Shown: in pieces, positions 5,253-46,650 of the stretch
Layout of the letters: every line of letters begins with the position of its first letter
How positions within the stretch are numbered: the stretch's first letter is position 1
NCBI RefSeq assembly: GCF_014851585.1
Contig: NZ_JACVAB010000009.1
Location: 62,001-126,000, forward strand
From: Agrobacterium sp. AGB01
GTDB taxonomy: Bacteria > Pseudomonadota > Alphaproteobacteria > Rhizobiales > Rhizobiaceae
DNA length: 64,000 nt
Reading direction: 5' to 3'
Position numbers and translations under genes: made by a program
Notes under the pieces: generated by a model
Databases searched by the model: none
Seen by the model: the letters and a program-made list of their open reading frames with translations, nothing else
Told to the model about the DNA's origin: nothing

Positions 5253-5597
5253 TTATTCGTAATGATCCTGGACATAGACCCAAAGCGTATCCATCTGGTC
5301 GGCAGGGAAGTCCAACAACTGCGACAGCCGCACGACCACGGGATCATCCCTGCGGTAAGACTTGCGTCCCTCGATGTCGAGTTCCGCAAGGTAACGCTCG
5401 TCCGGGTCTTCAATGGCGGCGTAAACATCAGCTTTTTTAAGAGACAGCAGATCCCATGCAGCCTTCCAGAAGGGCACAGGCTCGATTGGCAGGAATGGTT
5501 TGGGGGCTTTCACAGCTTGTTCCTGAAGTGCGCTAAACTCCGCATACTCAGCGGACGTCATTTCACGAAAAATACCGTCAATATATGTCTGTTCCAT
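5253..5597 (-). CDS. Small protein downstream of the tail fibre (putative tail fibre-associated protein)
   Basis: ATG 5597 is preferred: the tail fibre gene ends AGGAGGGGCTGA and this supplies a strong Shine-Dalgarno directly before ATATGG. The product has 114 residues, is acidic, and contains an N-terminal motif IDGIFREMTSAEYAEFSALQ followed by proline-rich and charged segments (EDPDERYLAELDIEGRKSYRR). The size and place, directly behind the tail fibre, are those of tail-fibre assembly chaperones, and the Met-Thr/Glu-rich start with an aromatic patch is reminiscent of them. No sequence motif proves this, so the role is inferred from position. Confidence 0.6.
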   Translation of the reverse strand: MEQTYIDGIFREMTSAEYAEFSALQEQAVKAPKPFLPIEPVPFWKAAWDLLSLKKADVYAAIEDPDERYLAELDIEGRKSYRRDDPVVVRLSQLLDFPADQMDTLWVYVQDHYE

Positions 5598-5598
5598 A

Positions 5599-7380
5599 TC
5601 AGCCCCTCCTGCCTTCGACGATAAGACGTCCACTAAAATTGCCGGAACTCATGTAAATGCGCAGCCCATTGAGTGCCGCAGATGTGGAATGGGCACCGCC
5701 AACCAGAAGGCTGAAATAGGCGTTTCCGCTATCAACTCCCACAGCCTGTCCCGTGTAATATTTTGATTGCCCCTTGGCCTTGTTGAACTCGAAAATCATG
5801 CCTTCGAAGTTGAGATCATAGGTATTGGAAAGGCTTCTATAGCTGGGAGTCAGTGCTCCAACGCCCGACGTGCCTGCATCGTATCCGCTGCTGACGCCAA
5901 TCATGCCGCTGGCCGAGATATAATAATTTGAGTTGATCCACGTCAGGCCGTTATCCGGGCTAAGTATCAGACAGGGAACCGCGTTGTTGACATTCGGGCG
6001 AATTGTGCCGCTGATCCTGATCTGACGAAATGCATCAAGGCCTGTTCTGGTATAGACGGCGACGTTCGATAGATCTTCGCTGTCATCTATAACTTCCCAC
6101 GGCTTCGTGGTCTCAAGTGTTGTAACGCGGGTCCGCACGTCAGCAACGTCATTGACCAGTTGGGCAGCAGTCAACGTGGCCGCATCCAACGGCGTATCAT
6201 AAGCCTTGATGAACCAGGTAACAGTGATGTTGGCTACGCGAGTTTCAGAGGCCATTCTACCGTCCGGACTATCGGTAACGGCAATAGTCGTAGTTGTTGC
6301 TGTTGATCCAAACCCAGCGACTACAGAAGACACAACGTTTTTTATGCCAAAAATAGCCCAAGAAGATTGTCCCACTGTCGGCATAGCGTGTCTATGATCT
6401 TGTAACGCATCCGCCTGAACCGACCCAAAGGCGCGCCCGGCATCACGAAGTGTCTGGCCAGCCCGCCACTGGCGTTTGAACAGTGCGTCATCAGTGGCAG
6501 GGAAGACCGGGTTGCCGGCACCATTGACGGACCAGCCGTTCGCCAAAGCCCATGTCCGTAATTCTGGATAGGCTGCCGTAATTTCAAGGCCCGGAATAAT
6601 CTTGAGATAGCCCGGTGGTGTCGTGGTACCATTGCCGTAGACATCGATGATCGTGCCAATGGGCACGCCGCCATTCAGGTAGGCTTGAGTTGCCCAGTAT
6701 TTCGCGGAATGGTCCGTGCCATCCACAACCCCATCTAATTTGACAGCCCAATCCTGTGCGCGTGCCGACCATTGCGCTGCCGTCGCTGCGGAGCTTGCCG
6801 TCTCAACGGCCGAGGTTTCGGCATCCTGTGCATGGCCTTGCGCGGCATCTCGCGCCTCATGGGCTTGCGTCGCATAACCAGCGGCATTGACGATCATGCC
6901 GGAATTTGGCCCTTTGCCAAGCAGACCACCGACCATCATCAGCGTGTCGCCTTCATCGAGATTATTGGCAATTTTTAAGCCGGACTGACCATAATCCGCC
7001 AGAATGGAGCGATCGGTCTGCTCCTTGATTTGCTGGATTTGCATTGTCAGCAGATCCATACGCACTTCAACCGTCTCGGCGTAATAAGCGCCCTGGTTTT
7101 CGAGATCGGTATCCTGAGTAAACGGCACACCGCGCAGCAGCACGATTTTCTGGCCACTGGCTGGTGCAAAATTCAACACGGCATTGCCGCCGGAATCGTC
7201 CGCGACACCGGTGACGGTAAAATCGTGCTGATGGTTGAGAACAGACTCGCTGCCGTCGGTATCGATAAGAATAACCCGCAAATGTTCGGGCTCATAAATC
7301 TTGAACTGATATTCAAATGCCGTTGTGACGCCGTTACCATTGTAAGGGCCAGAGCGGTTCACTTCGCTGGGTATCGTCAT
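5599..7380 (-). CDS. Podoviral tail fibre / receptor-binding protein
   Basis: The 593-residue protein starts with the T7 gp17-type particle-binding domain (about 1-140: NGVTTAFEYQFKIYEPEHLRV, DFTVTGVADDSGGNAVLNF, VLLRGVPFTQDTDLENQGAY, MDLLTMQIQQ). An Ala/Gln-rich shaft-like stretch follows (about 165-215). From about 235 a collar-like segment begins (GVPIGTIIDVYGNGTTTPPGYLKI ... DHRHAMPTVGQ). The C-terminal part (about 420-593) is Gly/Ser/Tyr-rich beta structure expected to hold the receptor-binding tip. It would mediate host surface recognition. The next gene is translated from its last codons. The nearby acyltransferases could change the glycan that such a fibre binds. Confidence 0.85.
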   Translation of the reverse strand: MTIPSEVNRSGPYNGNGVTTAFEYQFKIYEPEHLRVILIDTDGSESVLNHQHDFTVTGVADDSGGNAVLNFAPASGQKIVLLRGVPFTQDTDLENQGAYYAETVEVRMDLLTMQIQQIKEQTDRSILADYGQSGLKIANNLDEGDTLMMVGGLLGKGPNSGMIVNAAGYATQAHEARDAAQGHAQDAETSAVETASSAATAAQWSARAQDWAVKLDGVVDGTDHSAKYWATQAYLNGGVPIGTIIDVYGNGTTTPPGYLKIIPGLEITAAYPELRTWALANGWSVNGAGNPVFPATDDALFKRQWRAGQTLRDAGRAFGSVQADALQDHRHAMPTVGQSSWAIFGIKNVVSSVVAGFGSTATTTTIAVTDSPDGRMASETRVANITVTWFIKAYDTPLDAATLTAAQLVNDVADVRTRVTTLETTKPWEVIDDSEDLSNVAVYTRTGLDAFRQIRISGTIRPNVNNAVPCLILSPDNGLTWINSNYYISASGMIGVSSGYDAGTSGVGALTPSYRSLSNTYDLNFEGMIFEFNKAKGQSKYYTGQAVGVDSGNAYFSLLVGGAHSTSAALNGLRIYMSSGNFSGRLIVEGRRG

Positions 7381-7429
7381 TGTTTCTCGCGCCTATGGGA
7401 TTTGGCGAACCATAGGCGCAAGAAGGTTG

Positions 7430-10400
7430 TCAGGCTGATCTGGTTGTCAGAAGCTGCATGAGTGAGGTTTCTCCGCCCTTTGTCTGCGGCATGCGCGCCT
7501 CCAGCACCTGGCTGATCTGTGTGGCCGGCAGGCCAAAAGACAGGCCAGTCGTGTTGAGAGTTGCCATCAAACCGGCGGCATCGATGCCGTTGAGGACACC
7601 AGACGCACTGATCATGCCTGCCAGTCTTTTGGTGCCATTGTTGTCCTTGGAACGCTGTCCTTTGCCACGGCGTGGCGCTCCAGTTTTGGGGCTTTCAGCA
7701 TCGCGGAAAAACGGCATGGTCTCGGCAATAGAGAGAGCTGATACTGCATCACCGACTGGAGACTTGCCATGCGCAATAGCCTTCAACACTGCATCGGTGT
7801 AAAACAATGCGGCAATATCAATCGCCAAGGCGATACCCTCGGCAGCATCGTTACTGACCGGCATTCCACCTTGCGGAACACTGTTTTCGCCCGTGCGGGA
7901 TTTTGCTGTCATCAACGCGCCAAGCGCTGTCAGCAGGGTTTCAACCTCTCGTTCTTGGACGCTGGTCATCGCATTGTCAGAGGGTTTTCCATCACGCGAT
8001 GTCTGCAACTGTTTTACCAGCCTGTCGGCATGGCTTATGGCCTTGGCCTCGTTGCGTCGATATGTGTCCAGTCCTTGATGATATCCCGCCAGCCATACCG
8101 GCACCTCCACCATCTGATAGTTCAGTCGTTGCATCATCCAGGTGGAAAGCCCGCCAAGCAGCGTGTTGCTGCCACCGCTGGAGTTTTCGAACGTGCCTTG
8201 CCTGCTGGACATATAGGGTGAAAGCGCCGCCACACGGCGCATCACGCCCGGCCGCAGGGCAGTTTGCAGGTTAACGGCAAACTGCTGCTGACCGATGCCG
8301 GTCATGGCCTCTGACAAACCGGACATCTGTGTCATTGATGACCCCAGTTCCGTGGCAAGGCTAGCCGCGGTAACATTGTTCTTTGCGAAACGCGCTGTTC
8401 CGCTCAACAACGCGGCGCCAGATGTGTCGCCGGTCGCGGCGTCGCGCAGCCACCCCTGCAACATCACATGGTCTGCACCTTGACCAGTCTGGATAAAGGC
8501 GGCCTGAATACGCTCGTCCCGCAACAGGCGGCCAGTGTTTGCCACGACTTCACTGAGTTCCAGATCATGCACCAATTCGTTGACATGGCTGTGCAGCACG
8601 GACATATCAAGCTCGAGCGGCATGGCCGTCTGGCCTTGCTGCTGCCGGCCATGAAGGCCGCTGGTATGCGCCTTGGCAAACTTGCCGGCAACAAGCGCCT
8701 GTGACATATCATCTGTATTGTCGCGCAGCGGGTAATAACCGCCTGCCAGTTTTTTGCCACCAATCACAACAGGCGTTGCGTCCACCCATTGTGGTGTAAC
8801 ACCGGTTACCCGTTTTTCGCGGGCAGCAATGTCCGGCTTGAACGAAGCGGTATAATCCCAGACGGATTGAACAAAATCCGCGTCACGTGCGTCAAGGTAT
8901 TTCAACACGGAAACAACCTGTTGCTCGCTGAACGCTCCGGCAATGGTTTCATCTGTCAGCTGTCTGCGGTTTTCGGCAGTGCCGGTGTTCAGCGCAATGG
9001 CAATCATGTCCCATTTGGAAATTGACGTTCCAAGCGCTGGCACATGCAGGCGCCTGCCCATGTCCTGACGCTCCGCGGGGGAATAGACGTCATATAGTGC
9101 GGCCAGATCGCTCGCGGCCTTTTGTTTGCGTGCCAGTAATCGCCCAGACGCGGCATCGACAGGTGCCTTGATGGCAGCTTGCACGGTGCCCGCTTTTTTT
9201 GATCCATCGAGATCGCGTAGCACAAGGTTGGCATTCATGGCCGGGTCAAGATAAGGGCGAGGGCGCCCATACCCCTTAGTGCCGGCGGTACCTCCAGTAT
9301 CTGCAGCGGCCGGCACCGTACCGTTTCCGATAGACTGCTGAGCGCCCGTTGATGTGTGGGTAAAGGCGCCCAACACGCCGGAAACGGTCTGTTCAAAGTC
9401 GCGTGTCTGCTCGGCATCCACCAGCTTGCCGGCCCGCATTACTATGTGTTGCAGGTTACGGATGCTGTTGACCACGCCACGAAGCGATTGCAGCGGCAGT
9501 TTTTGGTACGGTATGCGCGTGGTGGAGGACATAACCTCGTCGGTTATTGCCAACTCGTTTTCACGACCTGCCGCCTTCATCTGCTCAATAAATACGTCCA
9601 AGCCACCCGTTGCACTTGCCTGCCTGTCTGCCCATGTCCCGAGCTGGTCACTGGCCTGCATGGACTGTGAGGCGTTCAGGTCGTAACGGCCCAGCAGGTC
9701 GTCCATGGCACTGTTGTAGTCTATGCGGCCATTATCGTGAAATGATGCGACGGCAAACTGTTCGCGCCTTTCCGGGGTGTCAACGCTTTGAACATAGCGT
9801 TCCATCTCCTCCACTTCGTGGGCGATTTTCCGGCTCTCGACATAAAGCGCGTGGTTGAGCAGCTGCCGCTTTTTGGCGGTGTAGAGCTTTTTCGCAGTCT
9901 CGTTCTTATCAGCGGATGTGCCGGTTGAGATATCTGCGTCAACGGCGGCATCGCCATTTTGCATCGTCACTGATGTCGCTGGGTCGACCGTTGATCCCGC
10001 GGAAAGCTGTACACCAAGACGCTCCGCTTCCTCTGCTGCACGTCGCTCGGCAGCCAGAAAACGTCTGCTCTCCATCGCGTCTGCCACGGACATGGTCGAC
10101 ATCATGGATACAGCAGATGCATGTGCCTCTTTAAGGGTCGTGTTTTGTGTCGTGTTGGACAAACGGCCAAGCGCTTTCAGCTCTATTTCCAGCAATTGCC
10201 CGCGGCGGTCGTTGTGAATGGCGTCCATGGCTTTTAGGTCGGCGGTGCCGTCATAAAGCGGATCGCCATGGCGCTCGCGCATGATACGCGCTGTCTCGCT
10301 GTCAATCCGGTCGTTGCGGCTCGGCGCCATCACCATGAAACGCAGTAATTCGTCGCCGGAACCATAGCCGAAAATGCTGGCGACATCATCGGGGTCAAGA

Positions 10401-13400
10401 CCACCTTTGTCCGTATAAACGGTCTGGCTGCCACGCGGCAGCAGGCCCAGAATACCATCTCCATAGTGCGCAACCAGCATTGCTTCGTCAAAACGGATAT
10501 CGGCCAGATGATCAGGCATCTCGCCGTCACCGAGCCAGCGGCGGTTGCTCATCAGCTCGGTCGCCCGGTAGTACCCTTCGGTGTTAACCTGCTGTTCCAC
10601 TTGGGCGCGCACCGTTGCCTTTTCTTGTGCGTAGGCTTTGTCCTGTTCACGTCGCACCGGCTGCATCACGCTTTGCAGCATTTCCGCACTTGCTTCGTCC
10701 TCGCTTTGCTGGCGTGTGGCTGTAAATTCGGCATATGCCGCCTCGGAAAGCCCCATGGCTTCTGCGGAGGAAAACACAGGGCCGCTTTCGCCAGCGTCCA
10801 GACGTGCCATTTCCAGCTGGCCGTCACTGACCAGCATGCGGTTAAACACTTCCGCGACCTCGGGGCTGGTTTTCCCGTTAACAGCTGCGCTGTTCACGTA
10901 GGCCGTCGTCAACCATTTTCGAGCGGTTTCAAATGTGCCAGCAAGTTCGGGTGAGGGCACTTTGCCTTCCAGCATGTATGTCTGAAAGTCACGACTGAAC
11001 TGTGTTTGTAGGCCGCTGTCGACTACCGCCGTTTTTGCCGTATTGTCGGTCGAAGCCGTACCAAGAATGGTCGCGCCATCGGTCGCGGCAATGTCGTTGT
11101 TATCAACTGCTTGTGCATCAGCCTCTGCAACGTTCTTTGCGCTTTGACCCCACCAGTCATTCAGCTGGGCCATTGCCGCCACCGCCGTCGGCTCACCCTC
11201 GTCAGCCATGTCCCGGATATAATTGGTGAACTGGCCAACTACGCCTGCAAGACCAGCGCTGGAGAAGGCCGTAATACCACCGGCTCCCATCCCCCCTAAA
11301 GATCGGCTTTCCGATGCGGACGCGCGTTTGCCTCCGGCTTTGTCCTGAGGCAGGGGTTGCACATCACCATTTTCCTGGGGCAGGGCATGGGCTTTGCCGT
11401 CTTCACTGGGCAGTGGTTGTGCATCGCCTTTTTTGACCGGCGTCAATTTAACACCGTCACCGTTCTTGGCGCGTGTGTCATCAGTCGCCGGTTGTGATAA
11501 GGCTTCGAGATCCATGTCGGCCGGATATTTAGCTGGCGCGTCAAAAGTAAATGTTTGCGGACCTGTCTTCTTCAAGTTCATAAAAACCACTGTCCCATCG
11601 AACAATAGTTTACCATAGAGGATAGCTGGCTCGTCGCGGGCGGGTTGACCGCTGGAAATGTCACTCGGCACCACATCAGTTTCGGCGGCTTGATAGGCCT
11701 TTCGATCCTCAATCAGAGCATCACTGAGTGTCTTATTAAAATTTTTGAGATGTTCCTGAGCCTTGGTGTAGGACATGGCGTCCGGCGTAAAACGCATTTG
11801 TTTTTTTATCGCTGCGTTATCGGGGTCGTCTGCTACGCGTCCAGCAAATTTGGCGGTAGAAATTTTTATATCACCACCGCTGCTGCGGGCTTCATCAAAT
11901 TGCTGCCTAGTTAAGCCTATTTTTTCAGCAAGTTCGTAGGGGTCGCGACCCTCTGTTTCCAGCAGGTTGGCCAGTTTATTTGCATCCACGTACATGTTTT
12001 CCGCGGGTGTGCCTTCGGTTGCCTGCTCTACTCGGCGCTCAAACCCCTCGGGGGAGAGCTGTCGAAGGTTAGAATCCTGTGCTTTCTGTGATAATTCATC
12101 TATCACAGAAAGAGTTAAATTGGCTGCCGAAGCTTTTCGTCGATCTATAAATGCCTTAGCTGTGGCTGTACCCATGTTGTGAGGCAAACCCGCCAAATTT
12201 TGAAGTCCAGCTGAGAGAATTTCGCCCCATTTTATATCTTGCCCCGCAGCAAGGCGTGCAAAATATTCGCCAACAGAACCACCAATCACATCTGTTGCTG
12301 ATGAGGAGAACGTCTTGGTGACGACGTTTTTAACGGGCAGTCTATTACCTACGCCTTGTGTAATAACTGACACACCGCCGATAACGACACCTCGAAAAAA
12401 ACCTCTGTTAATAGCGTCTCTCATCAAGTGAGGATCGTCGATGAGGCGTTGAAAATCTTCGGGTTTGCTTAGATTCAAACCCTTTTCAACTAAAAAGTCT
12501 GCGGCCGACTTGTTTCTTTCGGTCATGTAGGATGTGCCGAATTGTAAGCCTGTAATGAAAGCAGGATTTTTAGTTAGGAGCGTAGCTCCTCCAACGACGA
12601 AAAGCTGTGGCGTGGTCTCGCCGAACGTTTCGGCAGACCACACCAGAAACCCGAAAGGATTGTCTATGAGTGTCGACCCAACATTCCCCAATGTCTGGCC
12701 AAATGTAGCATCGTCGACAAACATGGTTTTCTGGGCATCCGTGGCCCAAACGGACTTCGGGGCATTTTTTATTGCCTCCTGATTGGCCGCAACTTTAGCA
12801 CCGTAATATCCGGCACTTTCTTCGTCATTTGTATCGATGAGGTCAGCATAGCGGGCGTCAATGTATCGGGTAGCAGCATTAAAATAGTTGCTCGGAATTA
12901 ATCTAAACCCTCTCTCACCTCTCTCCTCAGACGCTAAGAGCTCGTCAAAAGACATTTGGCGGTCTAGGTGTCTACCCAGCGTAGTTTCAAACAGATGTTG
13001 ATTGTATATTAGGGCTGTACCATCGATCGCCCGAATTCCTGTGTTTACTATCGCTCCCCAAATATTATCGGGTGGTGTAGCTTCGGAGACGCGCTTATCT
13101 GCTTTTGTGGTTTTGTTGTCTTGAGTACTTTCCGAACCATCGTTTGATCTGCGTATAAAAGAGTTAAGATTGCGAGGTTCGCGTTCAAATCCCTCTGCCT
13201 GACGTTCAGTCGATTGCTGCAAAAAATCCGGACTGAAAATAGCGGGAAGCGACTGCGACAAAGCTTGTTTTTCGAAGCGCCTGTTGGCGAGAAACGCAAT
13301 ATCAACATCCCCTGGCCGAGGAGCGCGTACTTTAACGCTGTTGGCAAAGTCATTATCTGAGCTGTGTATAAATGAGTTGAGATCGCGAGGTTCGCGTTCA

Positions 13401-14773: not shown

Positions 14774-14821
14774 AACGACAGGTACGTTGTTTAATAATGC
14801 CAAAAAATGGGGGAAGCATCG

Positions 14822-36929: not shown

Positions 36930-37119
36930 CTTTGCCGCCAGGCACAGTCGGCGGATCACGAGACTGTTATTTGATCGTGATCGAGGCTGCTCCGGTTTTT
37001 CTGGAAACCGGATAGTTGCTTGGCTATACACTTTCCAACAGTGCGTGCTGCGTGCACTGCGGGATTCCCCGAAATCGACGGAGACTAAGATCAACTTCCA
37101 ACCAAGGGAGCGTGAACCT

Positions 37120-38319: not shown

Positions 38320-38332
38320 AAACTCAATGGAT

Positions 38333-38364
38333 CGACCGCCCATGTCTACGGCATGCGGCGGTCG
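38333..38364. terminator. Hairpin downstream of nhaA, possible terminator
   Basis: CGACCGCC at 38333-38340 and GGCGGTCG at 38357-38364 form a perfect 8-bp stem with a 16-base loop, 14 bp after the nhaA stop. There is no T-run, so termination is uncertain. Confidence 0.45.
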
Positions 38365-38483
38365 TTACCCGGTTGACGTCACCCACCGACCTCACAGAAA
38401 TGTCAGGTCAACGTGACCGCAGTCTGAGGAACGAACACAGCAATAGCGCATTGGTTTTTTGGATAGAATGAAAGGAGATCCCC

Positions 38484-39023
38484 ATGCCAAACTCGAGACG
38501 AACCACTCTGCGCGTGCTTGATAATGCCGAAGTAGAGCTTGTCGAGGCCTCCCGCCATCCCTCCATAAACGAACTTTCCGACAGTGAGCTGCAGCAGTTG
38601 CGCAAGAACCTGCGGGAACGCCGCGATCGTGCCCGCGACATTGCCAATCGCACACGCCGCGAAATGCGTGGCAAGTCGGCGCGTGATGATGGCAAGGCGG
38701 CCAAAACAGATGCCGGCATTCGCGAACGGCTGTCTATCCTTGCTAATGCCGTGCAGCGCACCAATCAGGAACATGCCCGTCGTCAGCGTTTTGAAGGACG
38801 TGGTGAGTTGAAGCGTAACGCCGAAAAGGCGCTGGAAATGCGTCGCGCCGCCGCAAGTCCCATCAACAGACCAACCTCGCGCCGTGCTGACAAGGGCATG
38901 CGCGCCATTCCCAATGAGCGCGCGGAAGATCTGGTCAACCGAATGGAGCTGGGGCGTGTATCGCAATTTGTCCGCGACAGTCAGGCCAAGCGTGACAAAC
39001 GCCATGAAGAGGCAGGCGTGTAA
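38484..39023 (+). CDS. Highly charged coiled-coil hypothetical protein
   Basis: 179 residues, ATG 38484 with AAAGGAG upstream. The protein is about one third Arg, Lys, Glu and Asp. It has a helical core (SINELSDSELQQLRKNLRERRDRARDIANRTRREMRGK, positions about 27-64) and continues helical to NRMELGRVSQFVRDSQAKRDKR. Such Arg-rich, coiled-coil proteins occur in rhizobial genomes without a known role; nucleic acid or DNA-binding packing would fit the charge. The gene stands alone, with a terminator downstream. Confidence 0.7.
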   Translation: MPNSRRTTLRVLDNAEVELVEASRHPSINELSDSELQQLRKNLRERRDRARDIANRTRREMRGKSARDDGKAAKTDAGIRERLSILANAVQRTNQEHARRQRFEGRGELKRNAEKALEMRRAAASPINRPTSRRADKGMRAIPNERAEDLVNRMELGRVSQFVRDSQAKRDKRHEEAGV

Positions 39024-39105
39024 CGACGCATCTGAACATGCGGCGCATTCGCTTTGCTGCTCATTATTTCCTGGCAGTAAATTACAGTCGTTCATAGCAC
39101 AACTT

Positions 39106-39137
39106 TCACCCTGCCTCTCCTTGGAGACGCAGGGTGA
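39106..39137. terminator. Hairpin terminator after the charged protein gene
   Basis: TCACCCTGC at 39106-39114 pairs with GCAGGGTGA at 39129-39137, and the inner CTCC/GGAG extends the stem. CTTTTGTTT follows on the plus strand. Confidence 0.75.
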
Positions 39138-39271
39138 CTTTTGTTTGGTGTGCATGTCACGCCGCGTGGCGTGGCGTGTCCTGTGCCCGGTTTCTTGAGC
39201 CTGCGGCCCCAATACGCTACCTGCAGCACCGTCCTGAAAAATCCCGCAGTCGAATGATGAAGGAGATGCCT

Positions 39272-39835
39272 ATGAACCCGCACGATACCCGCCCGCGTAT
39301 TCATCTGACAGGCGCATCCTGCTCGGGCGTTTCGACATTGGGGTCCGCTCTGTCAGCGCATTACGGCGTGGCGCAATTTGATGTCGATGACTTCTACTGG
39401 ATGCCGACTGATCCGCCATTCACCACCAAACGCCCGCCACAAGACCGGGTAAAGCTCATTCAGGCGCAGCAGCGTCAAAGCAATGGCTGGGTGCTGACCG
39501 GGTCCTGCATGGGCTGGGGCAATGCCATGCTTGGCGATGTCGATCTCATCCTTTTCCTGCACACGCCAACTGCCATCCGGTTGCAAAGGCTGGATGCGCG
39601 CGAGGCCGCCCGTTATGGCAAACGTATTCTGCCGGACGGGGACATGCATGTTCAACACATGGCATTTTGCGATTGGGCGTCCCGTTACGATGACCCGACC
39701 TTTTCCGGTCGCAACATCGCCCAGCATGAGGAATGGCTGGCAGAACAATCCGCCCCGGTTCTGCGCCTTGATGGTGCCTTGCCGACCGCAGAACTGATGC
39801 AACAGGTGGCAAGCGCACTGACGAAGAACATTTGA
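39272..39835 (+). CDS. P-loop small-molecule kinase (adenylate/shikimate-kinase-like)
   Basis: ATG 39272 is chosen, since GAAGGAG stands 8 bases upstream; the frame opens earlier. The product has 187 residues. The Walker A-type loop is HLTGASCSGVSTLGSAL (about 11-27), with the Asp-rich lid start FDVDDFYWMPTDPPF behind it. The strand VDLILFLHTPTAIRLQRLDAREAARYG resembles the base-binding part of AAA-type and cytidylate-like small kinases. It belongs to the uncharacterised kinase group often annotated as adenylate kinase or shikimate kinase-like. It is the last gene before the membrane protein at the right end of the insert. Confidence 0.75.
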   Translation: MNPHDTRPRIHLTGASCSGVSTLGSALSAHYGVAQFDVDDFYWMPTDPPFTTKRPPQDRVKLIQAQQRQSNGWVLTGSCMGWGNAMLGDVDLILFLHTPTAIRLQRLDAREAARYGKRILPDGDMHVQHMAFCDWASRYDDPTFSGRNIAQHEEWLAEQSAPVLRLDGALPTAELMQQVASALTKNI

Positions 39836-39853
39836 CGACGCATGACAGTGGTG

Positions 39854-41059
39854 TCAGCTGTCAGTGTCAATTCCGCATTCAATGACATTGACGTCAACAG
39901 TTTCCAAGGGACGTCCACTTTTGGTTTCAAACTGACCACGAATGGTCACGCCTTTGCGAAGCATCGATTTGTATTCTTCGCGGTTACACCAGTTTTTCCG
40001 CATCACGTCCTTTGCCAGCGCCGGCACAGGATCAGGGGAAAATATCGTGATGGTGTAAACCCGGTTCGCATAGCTGGCACCTGATATGCCCAACTCGCCA
40101 TTGGTGGTGGCAAAGGTTTTTTCTGCCTTGGCGCGTTCTGCCATTTCGGCATCAATCTTCAGGTTGTCGAGGTTGCAACCCACGGCGTCGGCATTGGCAC
40201 TGCGCACAATATTGCCTGTGCGGTCCAGCAGCTCGCCTTGCAGCGTGGCGCCAAATGCAAACAGCTCTTTATAGTCGTTTGCGTTGCACCAGGTAAATTC
40301 CGTCAAATCTTGCCATTGCTGCCGCTCGGCCTCATTGTCGTTCCCAATCCGGTAGCGATAGATCAGGGTATAACCATCCGCTACAACGGCGGTCAGCCTG
40401 ACATTTCTGTCGAAGTTTTGTGGAATGGTGCGGGATGCCCCATAACGTTTCAGGGCCGCTTGTATCGCTTCGCTTTGTGTTTGCGGTTCTGGCGGCGGAG
40501 GGGGCGGAGGAGGCGGCTGTGCGGCCTGCAGCGCCAGACTGAAACTGAATTGTTCGAAACGCTTCTCGGCAATACGATCCAGCTGCGTCGCAGAAATCAG
40601 AACGCCCAAACCGGCCAGCGTCATGATGATGTTTGTTAAAATCGTGTCGTCAATCGGCTTGGTCTTTTCCTGACCTTTGTCGAACACAAGCGCGAGATTG
40701 GCAACGGGCATCAGGCCCATCAACCATCGGTCATTTTCCCCATAGGCATCGCGGGAACGCGCTGCCGAAAACAGGCCGGCCACAGCGCCAGCGAGCATCA
40801 TCATGGCAATGTGTGTGCCAACGATAACATGGGCATAGCCATGTTCGATTGCCAGCTGTTCCGGCAGGTAGAGCAGGGTAGAAGCGTAAAGTATGACAAA
40901 GACCAGACAGCAGCCGAAGAAATAAGCGCCACCGCCAATTTTCCATGTCGGTTTTGTTATCGCAAGGATTGCCCAGGCTGAAAACACCATCACGGGCCAC
41001 GACCACAAAATCCTCATGAACATGCTGAGCTCAAGCAGCTCGCGTGCGAATTCTTCCAT
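39854..41059 (-). CDS. Multi-pass membrane protein of unknown family; relative of the 21852-23183 gene
   Basis: ATG 41059 with AGAGGGG upstream gives 401 residues. About five membrane helices fill the first 175 residues, with the loop VAGLFSAARSRDAYGENDRWL; then a nine-proline run (about 185-195) and a soluble domain in two similar halves, each with a W or NWCN(A/R)..YK motif (FTWCNANDYKELFAFGATL and KNWCNREEYKSMLRKGVTI). The C-terminus VIEC and internal Cys residues suggest a disulphide, so this part may face the periplasm. The order and key wording match the gene at 21852-23183. It is the last gene of the insert before the head block. Confidence 0.72.
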   Translation of the reverse strand: MEEFARELLELSMFMRILWSWPVMVFSAWAILAITKPTWKIGGGAYFFGCCLVFVILYASTLLYLPEQLAIEHGYAHVIVGTHIAMMMLAGAVAGLFSAARSRDAYGENDRWLMGLMPVANLALVFDKGQEKTKPIDDTILTNIIMTLAGLGVLISATQLDRIAEKRFEQFSFSLALQAAQPPPPPPPPPEPQTQSEAIQAALKRYGASRTIPQNFDRNVRLTAVVADGYTLIYRYRIGNDNEAERQQWQDLTEFTWCNANDYKELFAFGATLQGELLDRTGNIVRSANADAVGCNLDNLKIDAEMAERAKAEKTFATTNGELGISGASYANRVYTITIFSPDPVPALAKDVMRKNWCNREEYKSMLRKGVTIRGQFETKSGRPLETVDVNVIECGIDTDS

Positions 41060-41184
41060 GGCCACACCCCTCTATTCCCGGTTGTGTGGTACGGCCTTGC
41101 GCATAAAATCGCAAGTCTGGGCGGGTGGCGGCAGTTAATTTCTGGCTAGGGGATAAGCACGGCTGCAACCCTCTCAACCGTCTT

Positions 41185-41260
41185 CCTAGGGCTTGTCCCT
41201 AGGATCTAAGCCGGTGCCTGATATGCAACGTGGTTGGATTCTCGCCACAAGGGCGAGAAT
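41185..41260. repeat. Two alphaproteobacterial-type intergenic palindromes
   Basis: CCTAGGG-CTTGT-CCCTAGG at 41185-41203 and ATTCTCGCC-ACAAG-GGCGAGAAT at 41238-41260. The loops CTTGT and ACAAG are complementary, so the two are inverted members of one type. This wording is common in intergenic DNA of Rhizobiales. They lie at the right joint of the split cluster. Confidence 0.72.
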
Positions 41261-41326
41261 GACGACGGCGATTGTGGTCTCTGACAGTCGCGGTCGTGCT
41301 CGTACAGAACACGGCTTCAACAGAAA

Positions 41327-41355
41327 CGGGCGGCCTTGAACAAACAAGCCGCCCG
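41327..41355 (-). terminator. Terminator of the head-gene block
   Basis: CGGGCGGC and CTTG at 41327-41338 pair with CAAG and CCGCCCG at 41345-41355, with one bulged base. Read on the minus strand the stem is followed by TTTCTGTT. It stands 31 bp past the last head gene, so transcription of the head block probably stops here. Confidence 0.72.
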
Positions 41356-41385
41356 TATGGAACTGTGTCTGCAGGCACTAGTGCC

Positions 41386-41670
41386 TTAAGCGTCGTCACC
41401 CTGCGCAGGCAGCCAGTCCGGTGGCGGGCCGCCCAGCGCTTCGGCAACGCCGTTACCCTGCGGCTGTTCGGCTATCGCGGCCGTCGGCTTCGGTTTCGGC
41501 TTTGCCTTTGTGGCCTGTGGCACCGTTACCGGTTGCGCATCAGCGGCATCCACCCATTTCGGGCGGCGCTTTTCATCCTGCCAAAGCGCGTCGGAAATCG
41601 TAAAAACCTCGCCGGTTTCGCGGATTTCCCCGTCAATGTAACCACGCGTGTTGGCAACCACCTTAACCAT
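41386..41670 (-). CDS. Small phage protein behind the Bbp16-like gene
   Basis: 94 residues. The N-terminal half is a compact domain (MVKVVANTRGYIDGEIRETGEVFTISDALWQDEKRRPKWVDAADAQPV) of the small-barrel kind seen in phage structural accessory proteins. The rest is a Lys/Pro/Ala-rich tail ending WLPAQGDDA. Its start overlaps the stop of the Bbp16-like gene by 8 bp. No function is known; it is last in the head block, before the terminator. Confidence 0.72.
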   Translation of the reverse strand: MVKVVANTRGYIDGEIRETGEVFTISDALWQDEKRRPKWVDAADAQPVTVPQATKAKPKPKPTAAIAEQPQGNGVAEALGGPPPDWLPAQGDDA

Positions 41671-42073
41671 TCGAAGGGTTGCCCATGGTCACACCGGCGG
41701 TAATGCGGCCGGTGGTCGGCGCCGTGCCTGTCACCGTATAGTTCAGGCGTACATACCGTTCCGCCGTGCCGCGCGGCAGAAAGTCCGGCAGAACCACCTT
41801 GCCCGCTTTCAACTCTGCCACCGGCACGGCCTGCGACCACACGACCTTAGGCGAGGCGAAGGCCGGCGCATCATCGGTCTGCAGCGCAATTGTCAGTGTT
41901 GTCAGGTTGTTGAAATCTTCCACCACCTGCAGGCGCAGCGGGACAGGCTTGCCCTGGCCAACATCGCGTACAACGCCGCCGGCAATGGGTGAAAGGTCGA
42001 GAATGTTGGTCGAGGCTGCCGTGGCAGTAATCGCCTGGGCATTGGAAAGCAGGCTCTGAGTATCGAAAATCAT
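41663..42073 (-). CDS. Bbp16-like capsid accessory protein
   Basis: 136 residues with the family wording MIFDTQSLLSNAQAITATAASTNILDL, then GQGKPVPLRLQVVEDFNNLTTLTIALQTDD, and a C-terminal beta-strand set ERYVRLNYTVTGT. This matches the Bbp16-type small protein encoded directly after the capsid gene in Bordetella phage BPP-1 relatives, where a role in decorating or stabilising the head is likely. Spacing to the capsid gene is 81 bp. Confidence 0.82.
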   Translation of the reverse strand: MIFDTQSLLSNAQAITATAASTNILDLSPIAGGVVRDVGQGKPVPLRLQVVEDFNNLTTLTIALQTDDAPAFASPKVVWSQAVPVAELKAGKVVLPDFLPRGTAERYVRLNYTVTGTAPTTGRITAGVTMGNPSNG

Positions 42074-42154: not shown

Positions 42155-43195
42155 TTACAGCGCCACTGCCGGAACCGGCGCTTCGGTGCTGAGCAGCGAG
42201 TCCGCAATCCGGATTGGAATGTTGCGGTAGGTGGTCACTTCTTCGCCTTCCAGTGTCGCAGACTTCAGCGGCACGGTGTTGGCGCGTCCCGTCGTCAGGC
42301 CACGGTCGGTGGACTGTTCGTCGAGAATTTCCATGACCTGGCGGTTCATGTAACACACGGTGCGGCCGCCCTTGGCGTTGATGCCGTAAGTCATGTACAG
42401 GCGGTAATAGGCCTGTCGCAGCAGCTTCCACAGGTCGACATTGCCGGCCATCATGTCGGACACATCGATATTGGCGATACGCGCCATGTAACGATAATCC
42501 TTCACAAAGGCACCCATGTGCCATTCAAAGGCGGTGACCTTGGCGTAATAGGTGTTGCCGTCATCGTCTTTTACCGGCTCTTCGCCCTTGTCCATCACTT
42601 CCACGCCGGCCTTGGTGCCTTCGGGGTAGAGCAGGGAAGCGGCATGGTCTGCCCATGTCACAAACCAGATGGAGGTGTTGTCGCCACCGGTGCCACCGGC
42701 ATTGATCACCTGGTTGGCGGCGTTAGGGCGCGTCGGGTCGGGGATGTTGCTATTATAGGCGCTGAAACGGGGCGCAAAACCCTTGAACTTCTCCGGTGTC
42801 TTGTCCGTGTCGTGGTAGAAAAGGCCGGTTGCCATTTCCTGGTTCATCGCTTCCAGGAAGGGCGCGCTATCGACCAGTCGCTGCTTGGCCGGGTCCGGCG
42901 CAAGCTTCAACAGGCGGGTGTCGATTTCAGAGCGCGCTTCCAGAAAACCTGTGGTGTCATCCACCTGCTGCAGCGTGCTCTTGGATTTCTGCACGCCCTT
43001 GTACAGTCGGCCCCAGCCAGCGGACGGCAGACCGGTGCGAATGGAGTGACGGTGAATGCCCTTGAGGTTGCACTGCGTGGCAATCGCATCTTTCAGGATG
43101 GGGTTGTTCTGCGCCAGCAGTTCAAGAACGATGCCCTCGCCAGAGGCTTTGTGGGCGTCAATGAGGGTAGGTACGGTGCTACCAATGATAGCCAT
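42155..43195 (-). CDS. Major capsid protein (BPP-1-like podovirus type)
   Basis: 346 residues. The start MAIIGSTVPTLIDAHKASGE, the central MNQEMATGLFYHDTDKTPEKFKGFAPRF, and the ending TTYRNIPIRIADSLLSTEA are wording I associate with capsid proteins of the Bordetella BPP-1 group and related podoviruses, which fold as HK97-type shells. It lies between scaffold and Bbp16-like genes, as expected. The sequence is intact, with no frame break. Confidence 0.88.
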   Translation of the reverse strand: MAIIGSTVPTLIDAHKASGEGIVLELLAQNNPILKDAIATQCNLKGIHRHSIRTGLPSAGWGRLYKGVQKSKSTLQQVDDTTGFLEARSEIDTRLLKLAPDPAKQRLVDSAPFLEAMNQEMATGLFYHDTDKTPEKFKGFAPRFSAYNSNIPDPTRPNAANQVINAGGTGGDNTSIWFVTWADHAASLLYPEGTKAGVEVMDKGEEPVKDDDGNTYYAKVTAFEWHMGAFVKDYRYMARIANIDVSDMMAGNVDLWKLLRQAYYRLYMTYGINAKGGRTVCYMNRQVMEILDEQSTDRGLTTGRANTVPLKSATLEGEEVTTYRNIPIRIADSLLSTEAPVPAVAL

Positions 43196-43198
43196 GTG

Positions 43199-43960
43199 TT
43201 ATTTGCCCTTCGGTGCGTCGTTTGGAAAAAGAAGGTGAGCGGTTTCGGCCTTTCTGCCCCCGCCGTCTGCGCCTCCCGTTGGTGGGTTGTCCTCCCGGAT
43301 CATCGATCCGACCTTTGCGAATATGCGGATAAGCTCGGGATGGTTGCCGCCGCCACTGGCGTTGAGGTATTCCCTCAAGGCGGGCGTGCCGAGCGTGGAA
43401 AGTGCGCGCTGGGCGCTGGAAACCGTGCCCTGCCATTTGTGGCCGCCAATGTCGCGGTCGCGTCGGGCCTCGTCGGCCCAGCCCTGAACACGGTTGGCCC
43501 AGTTTTCCGCCTGCGCCGCACCACGTCGTGATTGTGTTTCAATGAACTTGTCGGCCAGTTGCTGTGCCTGGCGTGTCGTCAGGCCCAGCTCCTTGAAGTC
43601 GCTGCCCATCGCATCCAGCAGTTCCTGGTCCACCTCCACGCCGTCAGGCATGGTGAGCGTATATTTGCCGTCGTCGGGAACCGTATCGTCAGGGTCTTTG
43701 GTGGCATCATCCTTTGTGGCGTTGTCGCCGTCCTTGCCTTTGCCATTGCCATCTGATGTATCGCCGCCGAAATCATCTTCACGATCGTCGTCGTCAAAGT
43801 CGCCATTAGCATTGCCAGCCGCATTGGCCTTATCATCGGGAAACAGCACGGCCTCGGGTGAGGGCGCATTGGCCTCGTTACCACCGCCGCCAAAGCTGTC
43901 GCCTTCGGCACTGAACAGCAATGCGGCGCGGCCCAGCCACCTGTTACGCATCAACGTCAT
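43199..43960 (-). CDS. Scaffolding protein
   Basis: ATG 43960 (MTLMRNRWLGRAALLFSAEG) overlaps the end of the Bbp19-like gene and gives 253 residues. An acidic, disordered N-terminal third (FDDDDREDDFGGDTSDGNG, then DGDNATKDDATKDPDD) leads to a helical segment with VEVDQELLDAMGSDFKELGLTTRQAQQLADKFIE, and a short basic or polar end. A disordered acidic front plus helical capsid-binding tail directly before the capsid gene is the standard scaffold pattern. Confidence 0.82.
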   Translation of the reverse strand: MTLMRNRWLGRAALLFSAEGDSFGGGGNEANAPSPEAVLFPDDKANAAGNANGDFDDDDREDDFGGDTSDGNGKGKDGDNATKDDATKDPDDTVPDDGKYTLTMPDGVEVDQELLDAMGSDFKELGLTTRQAQQLADKFIETQSRRGAAQAENWANRVQGWADEARRDRDIGGHKWQGTVSSAQRALSTLGTPALREYLNASGGGNHPELIRIFAKVGSMIREDNPPTGGADGGGRKAETAHLLFPNDAPKGK

Positions 43961-44297
43961 AGTCTTCGCCTTCCTCGCTGTCGGCACGGCGTTTCGCCGC
44001 CACCTTTTCTGCTTCCTTGAAATCAGCGATCGCCAGCAACAGCTTCGGGTACATGGTGGGGTCGATGCTATCGAGCTTGGCGATCAGCGTTCGCCCGGCC
44101 CCCTGCCTGCCGAGGATGTAGTTCGTTGCGTTGGTCAGTTCCCCGGAATAGGCATCGCGGTAAACAGCGCATTGTTCCAGCATCCAGAACAGCACACGCT
44201 TGCCGGCTTCGAGGGCAAAGACGTCACGAAACGCCGTCGTGATTTCATCACGCTCCGGGGTATGGGGGTGAGATGGTTGTTCGTTAAAATGGTCCAT
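43944..44297 (-). CDS. Bbp19-like phage head protein
   Basis: 117 residues: RDEITTAFRDVFALEAGKRVLFWMLEQCAVYRDAYSGELTNATNYILGRQGAGRTLIAKL matches the Bbp19-type domain (helical, with a W and the GR.GAG...I segment) encoded between portal and scaffold in the BPP-1 group. The acidic tail EEGEDYDVDA follows. Its start shares one base with the portal stop. The precise role in head assembly is unknown. Confidence 0.82.
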   Translation of the reverse strand: MDHFNEQPSHPHTPERDEITTAFRDVFALEAGKRVLFWMLEQCAVYRDAYSGELTNATNYILGRQGAGRTLIAKLDSIDPTMYPKLLLAIADFKEAEKVAAKRRADSEEGEDYDVDA

Positions 44298-45982
44298 TAG
44301 CCTAGTCCAAGCTGGCGCAGCAGCGCGTTGCCATTGGGGTTTTCATTGGCGCTGGCCAAAAGTTCTGCGGCCTGTGCACCCTGGTTCAGCGCCGGTGCCA
44401 TGGTCGCGGCCATTTCGGCACTTTGCTGCGCCTGCGCCTGTTGCGCGCGTTGTTCACGCAGCGCCGCCACCTTGTCATCGGCAAGGATCATGGAAGGCGG
44501 CGCACCGATAGCCTCGATGTAAAGGTCAATCGCCTCGTCGGCATCCAGCTTGTCCAGTGCTTCCGGTCGTGCCCCGGCCAGCTGGCCAATAAAGGCCACA
44601 CCGCGCTCAATCGGCCCGGTGGAAACTGCCTGCTGCGCCTGCGCCAGGGTGGAGATATATTCCACTTTCAGTTCCAGCCCCTGCAGCTCCTCCGGTGGCG
44701 GCGGCAGTTCGTCGCGCGCCACCAGAATGTCATAGGTCCGGTCAATGGTTGGGCCCAGCTGGTCGCCAAACACGTTTTCCAGCACAGGTCCCAGCTGCAA
44801 CAGCTGTTCTTCCTTGCGCTGCGTCAGTTCAAACTGGTTGCGCGGCTGCACGCCTTCCATGTTGGTAATGGCAAAAAACAGATCGGCAAAAAACGTCCGG
44901 TCAATGCGGATCTGCGTTTCCCGGATGTCTTCGCGCAGTTCGGAAAGGCTCAGGTTCACTTCCATCGCCGGGCGAAAACCCTTGCCAGCGGGGTCGTCAA
45001 CATAGTTCACCGCACCCGGCAACAGCGAGTTGGGGCTGTTCTGCATGGAGGTTGGCGCGTTCATCGGCGGGCGTACCTTTTTGTCGATGCCCTCCAGCTT
45101 GCGCATCTGCTCCAGCTGCAACATCTTGATGTCGGCCAGCGCCTTTTGCCCCGGCGAAAGGGAATAATGGTCGTCGTCGGAAAGCTCCCAGGCCGGCGCA
45201 ATGATCGGGTTGCTGTCAAAGCCGCTTTCTTCCAAAAGCTCGGTGCCGATTTCGTCCACCCAGTAATTGGAAAGGAACGGCTTGTTGCGCTTGTCGCGCA
45301 TCGTCTCGTCGCGGTCGTAACGCGGCTCAATCGCGTGGTAGACGTCAAAACATTCGGAATATTTGGCCGTGTCATACAGGCCCCGAATGCGCTGCGGCAC
45401 CTGCTCGTAGCCGAAGCGCTCGACAATGCGCTGCACGTTCCAGCGAAACACCCGGTACAGCGTCGTCGCGCGGCCCTTGTGGTTGCGCGCCAGCCAGAAC
45501 CGGCCATGCACCAGCTGCTGCACGCGAATAACCGTTTCCTCGTCTTCCACCAGAATGGCAACCGACTGGCCAAACTGGCCAAGGTCGCCATACCCCACAT
45601 GAAAGGCACGGTAGAGGTTGGAGGCGGCAAACACCTCGCGCATCTTGTCCTGCACGGCGGCCAGATAGGCCTTTACTGCATCCACCTTTTTCAAGCTTGG
45701 ATCAAAGGTCGTCAGCCGGAACCATGGCCGGGCAGGCGATGTCAGGCCGGAATGCATGCCAGATTTCAGCGTGTCGCAGGCATGTGTGCCGGTGCTGTCA
45801 ATAATCTTGGCGCGGGTGCGCGGCCCGTCGCGGTCGCCCCCAAGGCGCAACCGGGTCGGTTCAATGTAATCGGCCAGCGACCGCCATTCCGCTTCCCAAG
45901 GCTGGCGAAGCTGCTTCAGCTCTTCCAGGCGGCGACGGTGGTAGGCAATCTGGCTTTCGTCGGTTCGGCGGGTGTCTGCCAT
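44297..45982 (-). CDS. Portal protein (head-to-tail connector)
   Basis: 561 residues, normal for podoviral portals. It starts ADTRRTDESQIAYHRRRLEELKQLRQPWEAEW, followed by SLADYIEPTRLRLGGD, GTHACDTLKSGMHSGLTSPARPWFRL and LGQFGQSVAILVEDEETVIRV. The channel-loop helix region includes MRKLEGIDKKVRPPMNAP, and the C-terminus is Gln/Ala-rich. These are the landmarks of Head_tail_connector-type portals. The protein forms the dodecameric ring for DNA packaging. Packaging would need a terminase from elsewhere. Confidence 0.9.
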   Translation of the reverse strand: MADTRRTDESQIAYHRRRLEELKQLRQPWEAEWRSLADYIEPTRLRLGGDRDGPRTRAKIIDSTGTHACDTLKSGMHSGLTSPARPWFRLTTFDPSLKKVDAVKAYLAAVQDKMREVFAASNLYRAFHVGYGDLGQFGQSVAILVEDEETVIRVQQLVHGRFWLARNHKGRATTLYRVFRWNVQRIVERFGYEQVPQRIRGLYDTAKYSECFDVYHAIEPRYDRDETMRDKRNKPFLSNYWVDEIGTELLEESGFDSNPIIAPAWELSDDDHYSLSPGQKALADIKMLQLEQMRKLEGIDKKVRPPMNAPTSMQNSPNSLLPGAVNYVDDPAGKGFRPAMEVNLSLSELREDIRETQIRIDRTFFADLFFAITNMEGVQPRNQFELTQRKEEQLLQLGPVLENVFGDQLGPTIDRTYDILVARDELPPPPEELQGLELKVEYISTLAQAQQAVSTGPIERGVAFIGQLAGARPEALDKLDADEAIDLYIEAIGAPPSMILADDKVAALREQRAQQAQAQQSAEMAATMAPALNQGAQAAELLASANENPNGNALLRQLGLG

Positions 45983-45985
45983 GTC

Positions 45986-46222
45986 TCAGGCTCCAAGCAA
46001 TGTCTTTTTGCCATCCATGCCGGAAAGCGTCGGTGACAGCGTGTTGGCAAAAGTGCCAACGCCGGTACCTGAGGTCAGAATGGTGCTGGCAGAACCACGA
46101 ATGCGGTCGGAGGTGCGCCGCGCCGCAGAACTCTGGCCCACGGCATAATCTGGCGTCTTCTGCTGCGCGTATTCCGGCGGCGCCTGAACAGTCGGGGTTT
46201 TCGGGGTCTTGAACATGCACAT
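45986..46222 (-). CDS. Small phage protein ending KKTLLGA
   Basis: ATG 46222 (MCMFKTPKTPTVQAPPEYAQ) gives 78 residues. The ending GMDGKKTLLGA, with STILTSGTGVGTF before it and a Pro-rich front, is a pattern I know from short proteins encoded just upstream of portals, or with core proteins, in podoviruses. Three bases separate it from the portal start. The role is unknown. Confidence 0.72.
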   Translation of the reverse strand: MCMFKTPKTPTVQAPPEYAQQKTPDYAVGQSSAARRTSDRIRGSASTILTSGTGVGTFANTLSPTLSGMDGKKTLLGA

Positions 46223-46227
46223 GAGCG

Positions 46228-46650
46228 TTATCCAATGTTGAGAAGAATGAGGATGAACACGGCAACCGGCACACCGGTATTGATGCCGCAAAGGGTCGCA
46301 TGCAGGGCGCCATGCGCCCGCCGACCGGATGAAAGTTTTGGGAGGTTTGCAGGGGATTTCGCGGCCAGATTGTCAGCCACAACAGCACCGGCAACGGGCA
46401 GGGTGGAAAACATCGCAAGCCACAGGAAGAAATTGTCAGTGCTGAACAGCCACAACAGCAGGCAAACGCAAAACAGCATCACGCAGAACAATCGGCCATT
46501 GGTTGCGGCATTCTGCCGACGGGCAATACTCACCGCCAGCACGTCACGCACCGCAACAGGGCTCTTGAATTTTATATCAATGTTGCTGCTGCTGTTGTCT
46601 GTCTGGCCGCTATCAGTCTGACCATTTTCACTGGCCTGCCCATAATCCAT
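46228..46650 (-). CDS. Small membrane protein at the head of the phage block
   Basis: ATG 46650, with GGAG 8 bases upstream, gives 140 residues; ATG 46680 is possible. A polar N-terminal region of about 50 residues precedes two or three hydrophobic segments (LFCVMLFCVCLLLWLF, FFLWLAMFSTLPVAGAVV) and a last helix PVAVFILILLNIG. It has a holin-like size and shape but charge and loop features are not decisive. The stop lies 5 bp before the next gene, so it is part of the phage transcript. Confidence 0.62.
   Translation of the reverse strand: MDYGQASENGQTDSGQTDNSSSNIDIKFKSPVAVRDVLAVSIARRQNAATNGRLFCVMLFCVCLLLWLFSTDNFFLWLAMFSTLPVAGAVVADNLAAKSPANLPKLSSGRRAHGALHATLCGINTGVPVAVFILILLNIG

Follow-up and report, generated by a model that had tools for sequence, protein, structure and literature searches.

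A podovirus-derived virion gene set dispersed among cellular genes in Agrobacterium and Rhizobium, probably a gene transfer agent

Podoviral head and tail/ejection blocks (BPP-1/epsilon15-like), both on the minus strand and with open frames, are separated by 20.4 kb of DNA in Agrobacterium sp. AGB01, within the window of 64,000 nucleotides that was analysed. The dispersed set to which these blocks belong is, judging from its sequence, probably a gene transfer agent (GTA) of podoviral ancestry, and a domesticated, co-regulated podovirus is considered a rather probable explanation for it. Domesticated DNA-moving phages are best known from the RcGTA and BaGTA lineages. Among the explanations offered in the sequence-only reading of this locus, the one in which virion genes have been kept as a dispersed set is best supported, by the recurrence in other species of the modules with their order and strand, by purifying selection and by a promoter-like element at most module starts.

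The head block (46650 to 41386) and the tail/ejection block (20936 to 5253) had been described as lying on the same strand with intact frames, which is borne out by PHROG matches at 46291-41663 (phrog_831, phrog_332, phrog_458, phrog_212, phrog_427) and 20936-5253 (phrog_394, phrog_376, phrog_308, phrog_418, phrog_10475, phrog_9880, phrog_1640). The features of the locus, in the direction of the blocks, are:

46228..46680, minus: first open reading frame of the head block, 150 aa, without PHROG family
45986..46291, minus: small head-block gene (phrog_831), present in split relatives
44297..45982, minus: portal protein (phrog_332, 3.6e-151; 90% amino acid identity in G028)
43944..44297, minus: small head-block gene (phrog_528)
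43199..43987, minus: scaffold/protease (phrog_458, annotated protease)
42155..43195, minus: major capsid protein of epsilon15 gp7 type (phrog_212, NF045672; 98% amino acid identity in G028 and G062)
41663..42073, minus: gene in the Bbp16 position (phrog_427)
41386..41670, minus: last small head-block gene, present in split relatives
20983..41385, no strand: head-to-tail spacer of cellular genes (family matches)
23597..23980, plus: 127-aa spacer gene, found again behind the head block in Rhizobium G063 and G064, and in G069 (L145)
20310..20936, minus: tail tube A (phrog_394)
18218..20317, minus: tail tube B (phrog_376, 2.4e-221)
17761..18228, minus: gp13-like internal virion protein (phrog_308)
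17256..17885, minus: gp14-like internal virion protein (phrog_418, T7_gp14)
15265..17247, minus: internal protein with endolysin-like N-terminus (phrog_10475)
14807..15154, plus: 115-aa protein inserted behind the tail module, adjoining it in G028 and G062 too
14018..14773, plus: 251-aa protein, its gene oriented divergently to that of the ejection protein; same neighbour in G028, G062, G063 and G065
7430..13990, minus: ejection/internal protein, 2186 aa (phrog_9880)
5599..7380, minus: tail fibre (phrog_1640)
5253..5633, minus: small phage gene after the fibre (phrog_14311)

The capsid belongs to the NCBIfam equivalog MCP_gp7_epsi_15 (303.8 bits, cut-off 75), and the 150-aa first frame is weakly matched by tblastn ahead of the portal in two contiguous prophages (G014, G005). 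The genes between the head block and tail tube A had been taken for ordinary cellular genes, and family matches agree (Na/H antiporter, HD, aldo/keto reductase, short-chain dehydrogenase, epimerase, LysR, TetR, ArsR-type and UPF0093, with further cellular families and some genes without family). The late operon had been read as lying in two pieces; the 20.4-kb split is real, but the tail block is itself broken by the two plus-strand genes at 14018-15154, for which no Pfam match was found. Similarly, the virion blocks are as described, but the set extends past the window: TerS and TerL are on another contig of the genome (C3), and holins, an HTH regulator, HNH, primase and endolysin are at C24:47967-55896, left of the window and 11-19 kb beyond the fibre. 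The modules are TerS-TerL, head, tail, ejection protein, fibre, holins and regulator-primase-endolysin. No close DNA match was found in E. coli genomes.

Comparison with related genomes, proposed in the sequence-only reading, revealed both that the split recurs and that uninterrupted relatives with an integrase exist. The split, with module order and strand identical to those of the window genome (G000), is present in two other genomes of the genus Agrobacterium (G028, G062) and in Rhizobium, and virion genes are also split in a separate Pleomorphomonas clade. TerL, head and tail lie on one contig, in constant order and strand, in Rhizobium G063, G064, G065 and G068 and in Pleomorphomonas G078, G081 and G083. 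Rhizobium sp. BK196 and R. mesosinicum HU56 are among the strains with the dispersed set. Among the head-block genomes searched, tail tube B was found in 23 of 23 and TerL in 24 of 24. An assembly artefact, or two unrelated prophages, is extremely improbable as the source of the arrangement: the window comes from a draft assembly of 24 contigs and nothing else speaks in its favour, while the artefact is ruled out by other assemblies, in which single contigs, one of them 3.3 Mb long in G062, show the same arrangement. Two unrelated half-prophages are ruled out by congruent trees of three separated modules, the same 14 split genomes forming one clade for TerL (100/99), portal (89/97) and tail tube B (100/100). 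The same trees give no support to the suggestion that two defective relatives flank a chromosomal segment. The capsid alone differs in its closest relative, the window capsid grouping with contiguous prophages in a tree discordant with the others.

The closest contiguous relatives are prophages of Phyllobacterium sp. 628 and Mesorhizobium muleiense (portal 62-66%, capsid 69-71%, TerL 79-80% amino acid identity), which share the module order of the dispersed set but, unlike it, span about 42-48 kb and carry integrase, helicase, RecE and RecT. From TerS to endolysin, the dispersed set spans 175 kb in G028, 157 kb in G062, 145 kb in G063 and 128 kb in G064, about 3-4 times the span of contiguous relatives with homologous capsids; the split set is not contiguous, unlike the genome of an ordinary temperate podovirus, and may be too large to be packaged whole. 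Similarity to known phages is more distant: tail tube B is 42.5% identical to that of BPP-1 over its length (genome 42.5 kb) and, among the phages listed, closest to that of Microcystis phage Mel-JY33 (48%); the portal matches phiV10-like phages (42-43% over 85%), and the best capsid match among the phages listed is Vibrio phage MZH0603 (49.6%). Those listed from the BPP-1/epsilon15/phiV10 group have single genomes of about 39-47 kb, whereas in the dispersed set cellular genes separate the modules by tens of kb. Because contiguous relatives with integrase exist, insertion of host DNA into a prophage, another of the explanations first offered, is the likely origin of the set.

It is unlikely, but the modules might also be the conserved backbone of a large island of 130-175 kb, which would collect cargo between them and be mobilized in one piece by a route other than whole packaging. 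Conserved backbone and variable spacers would fit such an island: between G063 and G064, colinearity is 100% for TerS-TerL, head and tail, 91% for HTH-lysin, 35-51% for spacers and 84% for the flank, and the ivp-fibre-ejection-holin stretch is spacer-like (just 37%). Cellular genes are reshuffled between G000 and G028/G062 with module order constant, and dusA, known as an integration site, adjoins the integrase in the Phyllobacterium copy and lies near the endolysin end in Rhizobium. Distribution within the genus is patchy as well. However, the Mesorhizobium integrase had no match at 1e-6 in the split regions, nor in 40-kb regions of the contiguous prophages of G014 and G005, and G063 and G064 have common flanking DNA past both ends (blocks of 6.6 kb and 14 kb), as in vertical descent.

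Inheritance of the set appears patchy: of 39 genomes of the genus only 3 carry it, and by rpoB the sister of G028/G062 is not G000. A portal profile search of 394 genomes of the same family gave 21 matches, strong in three (G000, G014, G195). Distances of rpoB and modules are correlated over 23 genomes (Mantel r 0.65-0.82), unevenly within groups, and within 11 Rhizobium-group genomes the correlation is weak (tail tube B, r 0.13, p 0.18; capsid, r 0.27, p 0.08). By rpoB, G063 is closer to G074 (0.923) than to G000 (0.843), yet G074 is the more distant from G063 in portal, tail tube B, TerL and capsid.

In the genes tested, frames are intact and under purifying selection. The dN/dS values, in a set of phage genes that leaves out the ejection protein, internal protein and fibre, are mostly 0.02-0.25, and between G000 and G028 they are 0.075 for portal, 0.081 for tail tube B, 0.017 for capsid, 0.10 for TerL, 0.13 for both endolysin and primase, and 0.09-0.10 for two holins. 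A value of 0.78 for gp14 over 35 codons was set aside, as it falls in an uncertain start overlapping gp13; the true start of the gp14-like protein is probably at about codon 40. Losses elsewhere would be in keeping with a prophage that rearrangement has broken and that is simply in decay: the ejection protein is lost in two of seven genomes examined, being shortened to 113 aa in G062, where the fibre is absent, and absent from the 170 kb examined in G064; in Rhizobium R634 the capsid match is in two frames. Decay is quite unlikely; against it stand the open frames and low dN/dS that physically separate modules show across genus-level divergence, and the promoter-like elements at separate module starts. 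Some other use of the particle encoded by the dispersed set, such as DNA-free killing, a decoy or superinfection defence, is very unlikely. Fibre, internal and ejection proteins are the most changed between G000 and G028 (36-45% identity), as in strain competition, other virion genes over 200 aa having 73-98% identity (scaffold excepted, 70%). However, a DNA-free particle would not need TerL, portal and capsid, all of which are retained under constraint.

Co-regulation of a domesticated set is suggested by a common promoter-like element, ACAACCAT-N6-7-CTA, which most module starts have some 50 bp upstream. In the window it is found at four places:

46688..46709, minus: head block, ACAACCATTGACCGCTAAC, with spacing one base less than the others (pattern scan, PWM 12.3)
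20961..20982, minus: tail tube A (start-based test)
14019..14040, minus: ejection protein (held out of the motif model)
7409..7430, minus: fibre (held out of the motif model)

The element was recovered at held-out starts of the ejection protein, a holin and the fibre, and none of 19 internal-gene controls from five split genomes fell below p 0.13. When five whole genomes were scanned, the pattern matched 24 times; 13 of these matches precede modules, and 6 of the 24 precede held-out modules. The head-block element is the weakest of the set, and the head start of G000 gave p 0.38 in the start-based test, the site having fallen outside the tested stretch. In that test, no element was detected at primase and regulator starts. 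Neither the Phyllobacterium sp. 628 nor the Mesorhizobium muleiense contiguous prophage has the element before tail tube A, nor does the Mesorhizobium prophage have it before the ejection protein. A further motif match in G000, at C3:39515, precedes a short ORF and a 567-aa ORF.

GTAs are defined by caudoviricete-derived proteins, packaging of mostly random host DNA, an endogenized genome often at multiple loci that cannot be fully packaged, mostly vertical inheritance with host co-diversification, and delivery of DNA to other cells (PMC9662315). Caudoviricete-derived proteins are present here (PHROG, Pfam and NCBIfam matches), and the genome is endogenized at multiple loci, over 128-175 kb in G028, G062, G063 and G064 and on two contigs in G000. 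BaGTA (Bartogtaviriformidae, Bartonella) similarly combines phage-derived structural genes with a kept phage replication module, other genes lying between, its distance to its origin being a median of 32 kb and at most 91 kb (PMC3610622; PMC9662315). Here, however, the virion operon itself is in several modules; the systems are compared by their organization. In RcGTA (Rhodogtaviriformidae), too, the genes are spread over a number of chromosomal loci (five in R. capsulatus), but it has a 49-nm tail (PMC9662315), whereas the families here are T7/BPP-1/epsilon15-like podoviral ones. No earlier description of this system was found in titles and abstract openings of the papers listed from the GTA, podovirus and Rhizobium/Agrobacterium literature, most subscription journals and preprints being outside that scope.

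The proposed course begins with an old BPP-1/epsilon15-like temperate podovirus that would no longer be inheritable as a phage, its genome having been opened by cellular genes into modules that the cell lineage keeps. One regulator may turn the modules on together, after which particles would assemble and package about one headful of any DNA that TerL/TerS accepts. Holins and endolysin would release the particles, and the DNA might then reach neighbouring cells, as in a GTA. A further proposal is possible but doubtful: that this is a new podovirus-derived GTA class in Hyphomicrobiales, arisen at least twice (Agrobacterium/Rhizobium and Pleomorphomonas), the fragments of its broken late operon each rewired with a copy of the phage late promoter and its kept primase marking a local origin that would amplify, and so favour the spread of, inter-module cellular genes. 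Altogether, a nearly complete set of virion genes kept in pieces by a soil bacterium, most pieces apparently with the same promoter-like element, suggests that the cell has made an old virus into a device for moving DNA. The set would add a short-tailed phage lineage to the candidates; as both contiguous relatives and intermediate arrangements are there to compare it with, the steps from phage to device (mobility loss, operon opening and a promoter per fragment) may be readable, and the promoter-like element might provide a genome-wide handle for finding the regulator and further members of the regulon.

In Agrobacterium sp. AGB01 (5.62-Mb assembly of 24 contigs; the window spans C24:62001-126000), podoviral particle genes are distributed over separate modules. 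Profile matches in the window bear out both the head block and the tail/ejection block described by the sequence-only reading, with the stretch between them made up for the most part of cellular genes.

Modules in AGB01 (unprefixed coordinates are window positions)
46291-41386: head block, phage family matches
20936-5253: tail/ejection/fibre block, phage family matches
C24:47967-55896, outside the window: HTH regulator, HNH, primase (852 aa), endolysin GH108, three small holin-position genes (one with a holin family match, weak)
Contig C3, about 21.3-23.7 kb, outside the window: TerS/TerL

Adjoining the head block, 47008-51159 encodes an HATPase protein that weakly matches a type II restriction enzyme, a neighbouring 413-aa protein and a C5 cytosine methylase, likely a restriction-modification set, with no match in the region examined of G028, another Agrobacterium-genus genome. 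A sul1 RNA motif scores over its gathering score at 55897-55952, minus strand. Two proteins without Pfam matches, one at each edge of the head-tail spacer (21852-23318, 39854-41065), match one gene row in G028 (215.1-218.0 kb) and, weakly, Pleomorphomonas G080; they are possibly recurring spacer cargo.

The head-tail split is not accidental, as the same arrangement is found in G028, in its congener G062 and on single contigs elsewhere.

Modules in G028 and in G063 (Rhizobium group)
G028, 124.5 kb: TerL
G028, 132.3-137.2 kb: head block
G028, 237.9-243.7 kb: tail
G028, 264.9-272.2 kb: ejection protein and fibre
G063, single contig: TerL 264 kb, head 310 kb, tail 370 kb

G062, about 97% identical to G028 and colinear with it, retains 113 residues of the ejection protein and has lost the fibre. 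The capsid was detected in 8 of 39 genus genomes, three of them split (98-100% aa identity) and five at 41-42%, with portal and tail genes a few kb apart. Scanning an 84,980-species collection with two portal peptide patterns yielded 30 loci, 11 of which (five Rhizobium, six Rhizobiales AFS isolates) have a head block whose flank, short in some cases, holds neither TerL nor tail genes. TerL is close to the head at those Pleomorphomonas loci whose flank extends far enough, and the tail is absent from the flank. Tail tube A lies 4-7 kb beyond the head block in Rhizobium R634, R635 and J15, and was not found within 7 kb past it in R. vallis. Contiguous sets occur in Phyllobacterium, Mesorhizobium, A. 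cavarae, A. tumefaciens and two MAGs. Whole-genome searches recovered tail tube B (TTB) in 23/23 genomes and TerL in 24/24, and TerL, head and tail follow in this order on one strand of one contig in the Rhizobium-group genomes G063, G064, G065 and G068 and in Pleomorphomonas G078, G081 and G083 (portal to TTB about 44-95 kb in these three). In the same family, a genome of 1.5 Mb also has a close portal relative, at G195:C34:106412-108064 (L240; E 6e-193).

The proposal that both halves belong to one phage lineage is upheld by the TerL, portal and TTB trees (29 proteins each), in which 14 split genomes (3 Agrobacterium-genus, 11 Rhizobium/AFS) form one clade (100/99, 89/97 and 100/100, respectively), but not by the capsid tree, which discordantly places the window's capsid with Phyllobacterium/Mesorhizobium (100/98). 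Dispersal probably arose twice, because the portal tree joins Pleomorphomonas to the contiguous Mesorhizobium copy (99/96); the corresponding fork of the TerL tree lacks resolution.

The contiguous Mesorhizobium (G085) and Phyllobacterium (G084) copies carry integrase, helicase, RecE, RecT and polymerase exonuclease genes, with no match to these in the split regions examined. The contiguous G014 and G005 prophage regions have none either, which limits what this comparison can show. The gene adjoining the Phyllobacterium integrase is presumably dusA, judging by its sequence. PMC4482086 gives dusA as a known integration site. It lies 1-5 kb off the endolysin in G063, G064 and G074, and about 50 kb beyond TerS, not by the endolysin, in G062. 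An FAH-like gene stands on the endolysin side in G028, G062, G063 and G064, and was not found there in the AGB01 contigs.

Values of dN/dS, computed for genes of the terminase, head, tail, holin and regulator-primase-endolysin modules, were mostly 0.02-0.25; exceptions reached 0.36 (G028 vs G063), 0.42 (R634 capsid, which matches in two frames) and 0.54 (gp13, one Pleomorphomonas pair). In a set of 23 genomes, module distances correlated with rpoB distances (r 0.65-0.82, p 0.001); inside groups the correlation was uneven. G063 and G064 have flanking blocks in common, and coverage between them is 100% for TerS-TerL, head and tail, 91% for HTH-lysin and 84% for the flank, vs 37% for internal protein to holin and 35-51% for spacers. 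Between AGB01 and G028/G062, module order is constant and cellular genes are reshuffled. Given this low spacer coverage and reshuffling, turnover is quicker in the spacers than in either the flank or the modules for packaging, head and tail.

Upstream alignment revealed, ahead of both TerS and tail tube A, a promoter-like element, ACAACCAT-N6-7-CTA. A matrix built from 17/25 sites was then tested on held-out modules; its p values are single-test, with 18 genes tried in up to nine regions. Sites 45-55 bp upstream of the start were found for the ejection protein (p 0.0019 in AGB01, 0.0005 in G062, 0.0016 in G063), the higher-scoring holin of two (0.0029 in AGB01, 0.0018 in G028, 0.006 in G062, 0.0013 in G063, 0.0011 in G064) and the fibre (0.016-0.025 in AGB01, G028, G063 and G064). 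The G028 ejection-protein site is the second best of 220 kb, its p of 0.60 having come from a misplaced start, and the best match in G065 and, by a small margin, G068 precedes the ejection protein. Among internal-gene controls (portal, capsid, TTB, internal protein), 0/19 tests in five split genomes fell below p 0.13. There were also misses and equivocal cases: the head block gave p 0.38, 0.024, 0.022, 0.041 and 0.062, with a variant at window 46709; HNH gave 0.012-0.020 in three genomes, from extrapolated starts; and the endolysin gave 0.49 in AGB01 and 0.47 in G064 vs 0.008 in G063. The matrix test was negative upstream of primase and regulator and, for G028 and G062, upstream of the first of the holins.

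In contiguous G084 and G085 the element precedes TerS (0.004, 0.012) and was not found upstream of tail tube A; in G085 the ejection protein lacks it as well (the G084 start is misplaced). G084 also has it ahead of fibre and endolysin, and, as a further equivocal case, a match within the scaffold gene gives p 0.003 before capsid. R634, whose set is nearly contiguous, shows it ahead of tail tube A (0.002) and close to the head block (0.0013). Over whole genomes, ACAACCWTYNNNNNSNTA matches 24 sites across five genomes (AGB01 11, G028 4, G062 5, G063 2, G064 2), counts that are not independent, G028 and G062 being near copies, vs 16 for its reversed control; 13 of the 24 precede modules, six of these held-out ones. 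A strong copy at L096:19515 (AGB01 C3:39515), 16 kb from TerL, precedes two ORFs, a short one and an unassigned one of 567 aa. The minus-strand match at window 49283-49300 falls within an ORF of the plus strand and is probably chance.

In a contiguous late operon few late promoters would suffice, and fragments kept in use would each need one. One element per fragment, as expected of fragments in use, is seen for tail, ejection and holin. With a head of the size seen in its relatives, the set would not be packageable whole, and the target of selection would therefore be the cell lineage or individual parts. BaGTA (PMC9662315, PMC3610622), with variable genes situated round a phage-derived origin, is a possible parallel in arrangement. 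A gene transfer agent would best explain why TerS/TerL and the genes for head, tail and lysis have been retained.
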